Source: Bacteroidota bacterium (lineage in GTDB: Bacteria; Bacteroidota; Ignavibacteria; Kryptoniales; JAKASW01). Taken from it: a DNA stretch of 64,000 bases. Shown here piece by piece: positions 18,574 to 21,650 of this stretch (positions are counted from its first letter, which is position 1; every line of letters starts with the position of its first letter). Where the stretch lies: the NCBI GenBank assembly GCA_021789975.1, contig JAJYIT010000002.1, forward strand, positions 186,001 through 250,000. Reading direction: 5' to 3'. The notes under the pieces are model-generated. The model made no database searches. It was not told where the DNA came from and saw nothing but the letters and a program-made list of their open reading frames with translations. Made by a program: the position numbers and the translations under genes.

Positions 18574-18834
18574 CTATTCTTCTATATCCGTTTCTTCAAG
18601 ATCTCCGCCCGAACTTTTTTGGATCTTTTTCAGTTTTAGTTTTGCGTCGCTGAGTCTAATCGAGCAAGATTTTGCCAGCGCCATGCCTTCCTCGTATAGT
18701 CTGATTGAATCGTCCAGCGAGCTATTTCCTCCTTCCAACGTTTCGACAATATCCTCAAGTCTCTTCAGTGATTTTTCGAAATCCGGTTCCGATGCGGTCT
18801 TTTCCATTACTGCCTTGGAGTTACTCTTTCCCAT
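18574..18834 (-). CDS. xseB: Exodeoxyribonuclease VII small subunit
   Basis: The small subunit of exonuclease VII, which binds XseA to degrade single-stranded DNA. It is a short charged helical protein with the family core FEKSLKRLEDIVETLEGGN, SLDDSIRLYEEGM and a downstream KLKLKKIQ. The ATG at 18834 (86 aa) has AAGG five bases upstream and overlaps the xseA end by 14 nt. An ATG at 18807 (77 aa) is equally possible, also with AAGG five bases upstream, and would align better with the E. coli N-terminus. The frame extends to 18849. Translation is coupled to xseA. Confidence 0.9.
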   Translation of the reverse strand: MGKSNSKAVMEKTASEPDFEKSLKRLEDIVETLEGGNSSLDDSIRLYEEGMALAKSCSIRLSDAKLKLKKIQKSSGGDLEETDIEE

Positions 18835-20098
18835 GCTTCCCTTTGACAATTGTATTGAGAATTCCGTCCGTAAGATGGATCATTGCCATCTCTTCCAGGT
18901 TGATGTTATCGATGGAGCTGACAATTCCGTGAGGGCCCTGAACGAATGCGTAACCTCGCTTCAGAACCTGCTGAGGGCCTAAGGCGTTGAGGTGAGCCTT
19001 CACGGCTGAGAGTTGCTGGGATGAGCTTTCGAGATAATGCACTAGATGGGTATCGAGCCTTCTTGTCAGTTCATCGACAAGCTGCAACTTTTGATCTATC
19101 ATTGAAGCAGGCTGTTGAAGCGCATAATGGCTCGTGAGCCTGTCGATCCGCAGCTGCAACTGTCCCAACAATTGTTCGATCGCCTTGGTGATATCTCTTG
19201 AAAGAGTCCTCAGAGTATCCTGGATCTCGAATCTATCAGGCACAACGAGTTCTGCGGCCGCGCTCGGAGTGGCAGCCCTGACGTCAGCCACAAAATCAGA
19301 AATTGTAAAATCCACCTGGTGGCCCACAGCGCTGATGACTGGAATAGTGCAGTCATAAATTGCACGTGCCACCACTTCTTCATTGAATGCCCAAAGATCC
19401 TCGAGACTGCCGCCGCCTCTTCCGACAATCAATACATCCACGTTTCCGAGTGTATCGAAATCCCGAATAGCTCCTGCGATTTCTTCTGCTGCACCATCGC
19501 CCTGTACCTTCACAGGATAAATCGTCAGTTCGACGACAGGAAACCTGCGTGCGATGATGCTGATTATGTCCCTTACAGCGGCGCCTTCAAGCGAAGTGAC
19601 CACACCTATCCTCTTTGGCAGGTATGGAAGGGGTTTCTTATGCTCTTCAGCAAAGAGACCTTCTGACTCCAACTTCTTCTTGAGCTGTTCGAATGCAAGC
19701 TGGAGTGCACCTTGCCCTGCAGGTTGGATAGAAGCGGCATAAAGCTGTAAGTCCCCCCGCGGTTCGTAGACCGATATCCTCCCCTTTACAAGCACCTTCA
19801 TACCATCGGAAATATCAAACCGTACTCGTGCCGCATCGGATCTCCACATCACCGCTCTAACCTGTGCCTGCTCATCTTTGAGGGTGAAGTACAAATGTCC
19901 TGATGGCATATGTCGCTTGAAGTTGGAGATCTCCCCTTCCACGATGACAGAGGCAAAACTCCCCTCCAGAACTTCCTTGATTAGCCTGGTTAGATCGCCG
20001 ACCTTGAGAACTTGTTCATCATAGGCATTTCGTCTATCAAAGAGACCAAGATCGCGATCGCGTTGCGCTTCGGCTATTTCTCGCTGAGGTCGAGACAT
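18821..20098 (-). CDS. xseA: Exodeoxyribonuclease VII large subunit
   Basis: The catalytic large subunit of exonuclease VII (425 aa). The N-terminal OB fold reads VIVEGEISNFKRH, SGHLYFTLKDEQAQVRAVMW and GMKVLVKGRISVYEPRGDLQL. The central nuclease domain has YLPKRIGVVTSLEGAA, the conserved IVGRGGGSLEDLWAFNEE, and GHQVDFTISDFVADVRAATPSAAAEL. A long coiled-coil C-terminus binds XseB. A 30-residue charged N-terminal extension precedes the OB fold. Only 9 nt separate its ATG from the stop of a possible 36-codon upstream ORF that has a much better ribosome site, so re-initiation or coupling is conceivable. Confidence 0.95.
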   Translation of the reverse strand: MSRPQREIAEAQRDRDLGLFDRRNAYDEQVLKVGDLTRLIKEVLEGSFASVIVEGEISNFKRHMPSGHLYFTLKDEQAQVRAVMWRSDAARVRFDISDGMKVLVKGRISVYEPRGDLQLYAASIQPAGQGALQLAFEQLKKKLESEGLFAEEHKKPLPYLPKRIGVVTSLEGAAVRDIISIIARRFPVVELTIYPVKVQGDGAAEEIAGAIRDFDTLGNVDVLIVGRGGGSLEDLWAFNEEVVARAIYDCTIPVISAVGHQVDFTISDFVADVRAATPSAAAELVVPDRFEIQDTLRTLSRDITKAIEQLLGQLQLRIDRLTSHYALQQPASMIDQKLQLVDELTRRLDTHLVHYLESSSQQLSAVKAHLNALGPQQVLKRGYAFVQGPHGIVSSIDNINLEEMAMIHLTDGILNTIVKGKHGKE

Positions 20099-20107
20099 AC
20101 TAAACTT

Positions 20108-20218
20108 TCATCTGAACGAATTGACATTTGACCAAATCCGTTCGACATTCTGTGATTTTCCACGGTCACTACGAGAACCACTGGTCCCGCTCATATATTC
20201 CTGAGATTCCATATACAT
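20108..20218 (-). CDS. Possible 36-aa small ORF directly upstream of xseA
   Basis: ATG at 20216-20218 follows a strong GGAGGA site with about 8 nt spacing and runs 36 codons to a TGA only 9 nt before the xseA ATG. The peptide begins MYMESQEYMSGTSGS and is polar and basic towards its end (RSDRGKSQNVERIW). The frame extends upstream to 20299 with a GTG, but that start lacks a ribosome site. It may be a leader peptide coupling xseA translation, a small protein, or chance. Its first half lies within a duplicated segment. I do not recognise the sequence. Confidence 0.4.
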   Translation of the reverse strand: MYMESQEYMSGTSGSRSDRGKSQNVERIWSNVNSFR

Positions 20219-20291
20219 TTTCTTGTCCTCCACTGCTCCATTAAGAACCGTTGGTCCCACTAATATATTCACAGAATTTCTTTTCCTCCTC
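20174..20291 (-). repeat. Tandem imperfect duplication upstream of xseA
   Basis: Two copies, at 20244-20291 and 20174-20231, each carry on the minus strand a GGAGGA-type ribosome site, AAGAAA, then GAATATAT, and GGGACCA-x2-GGTTCT. In the frame of the small ORF the downstream copy encodes EYMSGTSGS; in a matching frame the upstream copy encodes EYISGTNGS followed by a stop. The upstream copy lacks a usual start codon. The motif GGGACCAGTGGTTCT is nearly palindromic, and a similar 15-mer occurs at 6848-6862. Confidence 0.5.
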
Positions 20292-20632
20292 AACGGCACG
20301 AAATTATAACGAATTTGACGGTTAAGTGAAAGGCAGAAAACATGAGAGGTAAGGATACCAGAGTCCTGTTTGTACTGCTCAGTTGAGAGTCAGGTGGTAT
20401 CTGACCACTAGGAGGGATAGGGTCATCGAAAAATAGTGACCATTGAGAAGTGGGGTGCTTTGAGGAGGAGATTGCGCACAGGTGTTTCATCGCGACGAGC
20501 CCGATTTAAGGAGTTGCAGTCTGACTTACCGACTTGCAGGGGAGATTCAGCAGATTGCAACGTGCTCAATGTTTTTTTCCCATCGAGAGATCTTGTTTGC
20601 AAAAGTGACGGACAATCCGCTGTTGAAGCAAA
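20292..20632. other. Gene-free divergent spacer
   Basis: About 340 nt between the xseA leader and the glycosyltransferase promoter. Short frames on the plus strand (66 and 91 codons) have no ribosome site and no protein-like composition. A small hairpin GTGGT/ACCAC is present at 20394-20408. Nothing else was recognised. Confidence 0.5.
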
Positions 20633-20662
20633 TTGAATTTAAACTCCATGTAACGTTATATT
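20633..20662 (+). promoter_or_regulatory. Candidate promoter giving a leaderless mRNA for the family 9 glycosyltransferase
   Basis: TTGAAT (20633-20638) and TATATT (20657-20662) have an 18-nt spacer. The gene's ATG begins at 20670, 8 nt after the -10 box, so transcription would start at or next to the start codon. No Shine-Dalgarno sequence precedes that ATG, which is consistent with leaderless translation. Confidence 0.45.
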
Positions 20663-20669
20663 GCTTGAG

Positions 20670-21650
20670 ATGGAGAGAGATTTCAAGAAAATCATCGTGG
20701 CACGGACAGACAGGATTGGAGATGTTGTCCTTTCCCTCCCCGTTTTCGCTTCGTTGAAGAAATGTCTTCCCGGAGTAGAACTGGTCGCCATGGTGAGAAA
20801 AGAGACATCTGATATTGTCCGTTTATTTCACGCGGTAGACCGAATTCTTCTTTATCAACCTGATGACAGGATTTCCTCGATTGCCGGGAAGTTCCGTGAC
20901 GAAGCCGCCGACGTGATATTGGCACTCTATCCCCGGTTTCGCTTCGTCGCCGCAGCCGCACTGGCAGGGATACCGATCCGGGTAGGCACCGCTTTCAGAT
21001 GGTATTCCTTTCTCTTCAACAAGAAGGTCCGTGAACATCGCAAGGATTCAATTAAGCACGAAGCTGAGTACAATATTTCTCTTGCCGCTACCATAGGCTG
21101 CGGTCAGAAGATCATGGATATAGACATAACGCCTGAGGCCGGCTCGCTGGAAAAAGTGACCGATTTTCTGTCAAAGAGAGAGATTAAGAAATTCATCATG
21201 GTACACCCTGGAAGCGGCGGATCAGCAAGAGCCTGGCCGGAGTCAAAGTTCCGCGACCTTGTCAAAGAGATTTCTGGAGACCTTGATATCGATGTGCTGG
21301 TCACCGGGACCGAGCCAGAACGCGGGATGTGTAATAGAATTGCAAGCGGGAACCCGAGAGCAATTGACGTCGCTGGCCAGTTTTCTCTCACTGAGTTTAT
21401 TGCGTTGCTCAGCCGCGCTGATATCTTCATTTCGAACTCTACCGGCCCTATCCATCTTTCCGCCGCCGTCGGCACACCCGTGGTGGGCATCTATCCGAAC
21501 AACAAGCCTATGTCGCCTGGACGCTGGGCGCCGCTGACAGAGAGGAAGATAATTCTGACACCCAAAGACGGGTCGGATGATGTCGCAAGTATACCGGCGA
21601 CAGATGTGGTACGTTCGATCCTTGAACTCACTTCCGTAAGGGCAAAATGA
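20670..21650 (+). CDS. Glycosyltransferase family 9 (heptosyltransferase-like)
   Basis: A GT-B enzyme of 326 aa related to the LPS heptosyltransferases WaaC/WaaF. The N-terminal half starts KKIIVARTDRIGDVVLSLPV (typical RxDRxGD) and continues ALYPRFRFVAAAALAGIPIRVGT. The C-terminal half has MVHPGSGGSARAWP, the TGTEPE loop, and the nucleotide-sugar site SRADIFISNSTGPIHLSAAVGTPVVGIY. It probably adds a sugar to the lipid A core or a related envelope glycan; the donor is not determined. The ATG at 20670 is preferred to a TTG at 20661. First of a plus-strand operon, with a 4-nt overlap to the DUF3108 gene. Confidence 0.92.
   Translation: MERDFKKIIVARTDRIGDVVLSLPVFASLKKCLPGVELVAMVRKETSDIVRLFHAVDRILLYQPDDRISSIAGKFRDEAADVILALYPRFRFVAAAALAGIPIRVGTAFRWYSFLFNKKVREHRKDSIKHEAEYNISLAATIGCGQKIMDIDITPEAGSLEKVTDFLSKREIKKFIMVHPGSGGSARAWPESKFRDLVKEISGDLDIDVLVTGTEPERGMCNRIASGNPRAIDVAGQFSLTEFIALLSRADIFISNSTGPIHLSAAVGTPVVGIYPNNKPMSPGRWAPLTERKIILTPKDGSDDVASIPATDVVRSILELTSVRAK

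Follow-up and report, generated by a model that had tools for sequence, protein, structure and literature searches.

The leader of xseA contains two related segments

The window, by which we mean the whole stretch of 64,000 nucleotides that was analysed, carries on its minus strand the DNA-repair gene xseA, preceded by a leader in which a promoter-like block, ribosome sites, a pair of related segments and several small open reading frames follow each other closely (Table 1). The xseA ATG at 20098 is the sole in-frame ATG, GTG or TTG after the last in-frame stop codon, and a strong ribosome site directly before it was looked for and not found.

The two segments, 68-nt units at 20282-20215 and 20212-20145 of the minus strand, can be aligned without gaps and are identical at 43 of 68 positions. 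The repeat sequence spans 20282-20145, with an offset of 70 nt between the copies. The best 30-nt self-match of the region 20100-20300 was found at this same offset with 23 identical bases, a value that none of 1000 dinucleotide shuffles reached (maximum 21). The duplication in front of xseA, first described in a sequence-only reading of this DNA, is therefore real.

That reading had further described the duplicated segment as containing a strong ribosome site, and as coding for the peptide EY(I/M)SGT(N/S)GS in both copies. Two ribosome sites are indeed present, but they are not homologous, and no single duplicated segment contributes both: GAGGAGGA (20291-20284) is a part of the xseA leader and lies ahead of unit 1, while GGAGGA (20231-20226) is the 3' end of unit 1. 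The peptide is spelled out in copy 1 (EYISGTNGS) in a frame where no start codon (ATG, GTG or TTG) lies between the peptide and the stop codon before it, and that ends in TAA. The open frame of copy 1 is another one, starting at GTG 20272, 54 codons long and in frame with both the 36-codon ORF and xseA. The 36-codon ORF had been described correctly: it extends from ATG 20218 to TGA 20110-20108, leaving a gap of 9 nt to the xseA ATG, and has GGAGGA at a distance of 7 nt. It starts inside the repeat, in a frame different from that of the 24-codon ORF, which overlaps xseA by 25 nt.

Table 1. Elements of the xseA leader and the gene behind it, within positions 18821-20308 of the window.
Feature	Position	Strand	Evidence
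-10-like TATAAT, putative xseA promoter	20303..20308	-	consensus match
CTTTCACTTAA block upstream of the -10-like TATAAT		-	counterpart in 10/12 relatives
GAGGAGGA, leader ribosome site, outside the repeat	20284..20291	-	GGAG-type site behind -10-like hexamer in 9/12 relatives
Repeat unit 1, diverged, with ATT in place of the ATG of most units	20215..20282	-	38.8 bits with R1 (row in training set)
GGAGGA, 3' end of unit 1, counterpart of consensus GTGGAAGACAA; ribosome site of the 36-codon ORF	20226..20231	-	
Repeat unit 2, well conserved	20145..20212	-	52.0 bits with R1 (row in training set)
36-codon ORF, ATG 20218 to TGA, in frame with xseA, from the end of unit 1 across unit 2	20108..20218	-	
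54-codon version of the 36-codon frame, GTG 20272 behind the leader ribosome site	20108..20272	-	
24-codon ORF, ATG 20148 (terminal ATG of unit 2) to TAG	20074..20148	-	
xseA, exonuclease VII large subunit, 425 aa	18821..20098	-	Pfam PF02601, E 1.1e-94

The segments are members of a repeat family dispersed in two genomes

The 221-bp xseA leader was compared with its own genome (G000) and with those of its relatives. In G000 it matched one further place below E 0.001 (contig C68, 77% identity over 63 nt, E 4.7e-4), which turned out to be a tandem pair between genes for an HlyD-type and an MFS transporter. In 60 relatives it had no DNA match, and no homologous ORF was found in any of them. Further places were obtained by searching with this C68 locus and with a core pattern, GGAATCN{4,6}TACATGAG. 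The pattern was present five times in G000, five times in G005, which is the closest relative in the genus by XseA identity (74%), and in none of the 11 remaining genus members; the reversed control gave one match, in G000. A sequence-only model, R1, was then based on 16 aligned units, 11 from G000 (both window copies included) and five from G005. At E<=0.001, and with the training rows included, it detected at least 25 units in G000 and at least 40 in G005, both being lower bounds obtained by scoring 150 candidates per genome. The genome search for further copies, which the sequence-only reading had suggested as a check, thus revealed a dispersed family.

The distribution of this family is narrow. 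Among the matches listed for the other 11 species of the genus none had E<=0.001 (the best had E 0.0254), and on this basis the family is found in 2 of 13 genus genomes. With stricter filters, R1 matched 2 of 197 genomes of the class at E<=1e-4. The exact 18-base core was found in seven stretches of GTDB 220, a search in which the records of the source genome itself were possibly left out: two of these stretches belong to JAKASW01, one of them with three matches, and five are singletons in unrelated taxa, about as many as we estimate to be expected by chance. The exact core pattern had no match in viral_contigs, and a viral source of the repeat was rejected on that ground.

For an assessment of the two window copies independent of their own contribution to the model, both of their rows were removed and the resulting HMM was searched over 48 fetched loci and the whole 64-kb window. 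It recovered 20210-20146, corresponding to unit 2, with 38.4 bits (E 3.2e-10), and 20275-20217, corresponding to unit 1, with 16.9 bits (E 1.7e-3). Nothing besides these two copies was detected in the window at any E up to 10. By these scores, unit 2 clearly belongs to the family, and unit 1 does so as a diverged member. The duplication in front of xseA consists of two tandem members of a dispersed repeat family with units of about 68 nt, and is not a one-off event.

Anatomy of the repeat unit

A majority sequence was taken over the 74 matches with E<=0.01; in it, TAAGGAATCTTAGAATACATGA is followed by approximately 28 variable bases and then by GTGGAAGACAAcAGAATG. The units are 65-70 nt long and occur singly or in tandem. 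GGGACCNNNGGTTCT was considered as a hallmark of the unit and discarded; it is exact only in the two window copies and does not belong to the family core. The inner ATG column and GGAAGA stand at a distance of 33 nt in 60 of the 71 units that have both anchors (three of the 74 lack one), and in 42 of 49 once middles more than 80% alike are removed. The middle of the unit exhibits a three-base rhythm, with purine fractions of 0.66, 0.74 and 0.31 at positions 1, 2 and 3, and in the ATG frame it codes mostly for Gly, Ser, Asp and Arg. Of the 42 distinct 33-nt middles, 33 are open in this frame, compared to 25.4 in the null (P 0.0115). The frame one base later is open in 38 of the 42, and the third frame in 15. 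Since the frame one base later is open more often than the ATG frame, openness alone is no proof of coding; the fixed spacing and the rhythm suggest that the unit may harbour an internal ORF. Conservation of a peptide was rejected as the cause of the similarity between units, since GGAATC is separated from ATGAG by 20 bases in some units and by 21 in others, leaving no common frame. The unit terminates in a GGAAG block, which presumably pairs poorly with the usual anti-Shine-Dalgarno sequence, a point against translation going on through the units.

Many arrays are placed at gene boundaries, and empty sites exist in relatives

At nhmmer E<=0.05 we obtained 84 matches, which form 51 arrays of one to six units in the 48 fetched loci of the two genomes and the window. 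About half of the arrays (24 of 51) are oriented as the preceding gene and start at its stop codon, the requirement being a same-strand frame of at least 90 codons that ends -18 to +25 nt from the first unit. An antisense stop codon at the array start was seen in none of the 51, and 325 of 5000 random positions in the same loci gave a stop codon by the same measure. No long same-strand frame ends at the start of the remaining 27 arrays, which counts against junction placement, and some arrays adjoin opposite-strand genes according to a crude ORF finder; this finder is wrong in places (at L112 and L113 it missed the true upstream frame) and was not used for the stop-codon count. At least five pairs of arrays are located at homologous loci of G000 and G005, and the 51 arrays are therefore not all independent.

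Two of the shared loci differ in copy number. The array at the Ppx/GppA gene (ppx) has five units in G000 and one in G005 (L102/L131), and that at a second shared locus (L101/L120) has six and four, these being differences between species, not strains. The six nearly identical units of L101 (G000:C24:1865-2274) have a 69-nt period and enclose a run of N, which may be a gap or a masked stretch. Two G005 arrays (L125 and L126, on C183 and C210) consist of identical tandem units located where contigs end. Arrays are therefore a probable cause of breaks in the assembly, and the copy numbers may be too low. At the transporter locus found with the xseA leader, the two species share 96% identity over 4.4 kb (L113/L119, G000:C68 and G005:C77), and at another shared locus (L112/L121) 92.5% over 3.2 kb, the long matches of three other shared loci being at 72-81%. 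On one reading, the high identity at these two loci could reflect recent exchange between the lineages.

In G005, the terminal ATG of the unit is a possible start codon of five genes: argJ, fabD, nuoN, ppx and a response-regulator gene. The family assignments are broader for fabD (acyl transferase) and nuoN (proton antiporter), and fabD, nuoN and the response regulator have an alternative in-frame GTG 15 nt earlier, also within the unit. Three junctions, those of ppx, argJ and fabD, were examined in the relatives. In 10 of 11 relatives without a unit at ppx (the exception being G001), the gene starts in an ATGA overlap that combines its start codon with the stop codon of an upstream frame, 288-330 codons long. 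The units of G000 and G005 are found between AAATGA, containing the upstream stop, and AATGAGATACG, containing the ppx start. At argJ, 11 of the 12 genomes that lack the unit have an ATGA overlap closing a frame of 370-372 codons (the exception being G000). In G005 the upstream frame still has 370 codons and its stop codon is kept; the unit follows, and its end supplies the ATG. The relatives without units thus display empty sites at ppx and argJ. At fabD, for which the neighbouring genes of five out of 11 loci were read (G005 among them), no ATGA overlap was found in the four relatives without a unit (G008, G002, G006 and G004). ATGA was present at only 8 of the 24 upstream stops, compared to a baseline of 35 of 229 for frames of at least 200 codons in the same loci. 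We infer that start/stop junctions are where the repeat inserts when it moves.

The xseA leader in related species

A CTTT..YTTRA block is found in the xseA leaders of 10 of 12 relatives. It is followed by a -10-like hexamer and a GGAG-type site in 9 of 12, and likewise in G000, as scored with a regular expression of our own (the G006 locus begins at a contig end); the leaders of G004 and G008 have GGAGC only. Eight of the 12 relatives combine a strong ribosome site in the leader with a start codon 3-14 nt further on, and G005, G004, G008 and G002 are without such a leader start. In five of these eight (G009, G011, G010, G012 and G001), the leader ORF has 23-28 codons, is in a frame other than that of xseA and ends within 4 nt of the xseA start. 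The shuffle null has a mean of 0.57 (P 0.0002), a value to be read with the species not being independent (G010 and G012 are alike in sequence). In the remaining three (G007, G003 and G006) the leader ORF ends 15-52 nt earlier. These distances refer to xseA starts that we chose at -69 in ten relatives, at -78 in G006 and at -75 in G005. The stop codon of the 24-codon ORF of G000 ends at -71, and those of the five relatives at -71, -70, -70, -70 and -65. The two repeat units of G000 are located between the leader ribosome site and the place of the relatives' leader ORF.

The leader peptides differ in sequence between species, and hence at most the position of the ORF is kept. The proposal that this region is a translational coupling leader fits the position of the leader-ORF end in five of eight relatives and gains nothing from the peptides, which are not kept; coupling of the leader to xseA may be regarded as plausible, not as proven. 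In G007 and G002, xseA is immediately preceded by a ribosome site of its own. G000 has ATA at -75, where G005 has the xseA ATG, and the start of xseA in G000 seems to have moved upstream to ATG 20098. In the G005 leader (L004, 330 nt examined) the shared promoter block is absent and palindromic-looking stretches of the GGTGGT/ACCACC type are present; judging by these features, this leader looks as if it had been rebuilt in another way.

Origin of the array and its possible role

We consider it likely that the array is a lineage-specific intergenic repeat, similar in kind to the MIRUs of mycobacteria, that was inserted in the xseA leader, with translation carried on through its units. Its position in the 5' leader would be between the conserved promoter-like block with its ribosome site and the place of an older leader ORF of about 24 codons. 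The units end in a block resembling a ribosome site, followed by ATG, and translation begun in the leader could thereby go on. Ribosomes starting from the leader site or from the end of unit 1 would read the 54- or 36-codon frame and stop 9 nt before xseA, and those starting from the ATG of unit 2 would read the 24-codon ORF and stop where the leader ORFs of the relatives stop. The small ORFs would thus be translated and would deliver ribosomes to xseA, and the array would have been inserted into a functional leader without cutting off the supply of ribosomes to the gene. Such a repeat family explains the odd xseA leader of G000. For the family as a whole, a translation relay through entire intergenic gaps was not supported: in 16 of the 51 arrays, those with an upstream stop and a hand-set downstream start, a strict relay with re-initiation -6 to +8 nt from a stop linked the flanking genes in three cases (null mean 1.14, P 0.085).

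This result agrees with a different view. The repeat would be selfish and nearly neutral, no more than tolerated in the leader; xseA would be translated from its own start in any case, and the small ORFs would be by-products of the conserved repeat sequence. The variation of the leader peptides among species, the expansion in two species only, and the ribosome sites directly before xseA in G007 and G002 would all be in agreement with it. We nevertheless hold it to be rather unlikely, in light of the failure to find a strong ribosome site directly before the G000 xseA ATG, the end position of the leader ORF common to five of eight relatives, and the three-base rhythm and fixed 33-nt spacing within the units.

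The sequence-only reading had also offered a nascent small gene that a duplication had produced. Such a gene, or a sequence-dependent leader peptide, derived from a ribosome site and a peptide duplicated locally, would be consistent with the good site of the 36-codon ORF (GGAGGA, 7 nt) and with its sharing the frame of the 54-codon version that runs through copy 1. This origin is largely refuted by the units at dozens of other places in two genomes, the copies being members of a dispersed intergenic family. In addition, copy 1 lacks a start for the shared peptide and has ATT where most units have ATG, and the leader has no DNA match in the 60 relatives; we regard a new gene arising in this way as very improbable. 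A structured RNA (a riboswitch, a protein-binding leader or a processing site) was rejected as even harder to credit, for although a hairpin-like GGGACC(N3)GGTTCT occurs in both window copies and has no other exact match in the genome (the reversed control had three matches) and the best of eight folded units reached a z of -1.79 (range -1.79 to 1.06), RNAalifold returned 0 pairs on 16 units, neither window unit showed better folding than its shuffles (z 0.92 and 0.33), and no Rfam match was found at E<=5 in 20000-20700 or at gathering scores in six array loci.

Returning to the insertion of a MIRU-like repeat, it is possible to go one step further. The family might constitute an independent mobile element of the MIRU type in Bacteroidota: a selfish unit of 68 nt that would target ATGA junctions, bring its own start codon and a small frame keeping the operon translated, and have reached dozens of gene boundaries in two species with the help of a putative separate mover enzyme. 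We propose this broader view tentatively, and with less confidence than we would need to call it probable.

Comparison with known systems

REP/BIME, ERIC, RPE and other small dispersed repeats of bacteria are located mostly outside genes, and those named are either palindromic or inserted in frame. The family described here resembles REP/BIME, ERIC and RPE in being small, dispersed and mostly outside genes, and differs from them in having no conserved fold and in the single orientation behind stop codons observed in 24 of 51 arrays.

The closest parallel is offered by the MIRUs. The portions of a 2009 paper that deal with them describe units of 40-100 bp at 41 places in M. tuberculosis H37Rv, which are used for strain typing and whose function is poorly understood (PMC2734929). 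According to the same account, the rnc-fpg1 gap measures 1-6 bp in several species without the repeats and 279-358 bp with them. A 2025 review portrays MIRUs as apparently mobile elements whose insertion takes place at start codons and whose ORF is coupled to the gene at -4 nt (PMC12548453). By description, not by sequence, our family is like the MIRUs as these sources present them: short dispersed units, variable tandem arrays, junction placement and empty sites. The units are situated between genes, in the orientation of the flanking genes for about half of the arrays, and the insertions at ppx and argJ fall at stop-start overlaps, with fabD lacking such an overlap. Unlike the MIRUs, this family has its host in Bacteroidota, not in mycobacteria, and its internal ORF usually does not close directly at the next gene. 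In the open-access literature we found no report of a MIRU-like family in Bacteroidota, and literature on repeats said to insert at translational junctions was found there for mycobacteria only.

A second likeness is to short upstream ORFs that couple translation to the following gene, an idea present in the 2025 review cited above (PMC12548453): the xseA leader ORFs end at the xseA start in five of eight relatives. The difference lies in G000, where the leader has been rebuilt by repeat units, and in the leader ORFs being predicted from sequence. A second family in another phylum, whose empty sites can be read in sister species, would open the insertion site, the mover and the coupling effect to comparative study.
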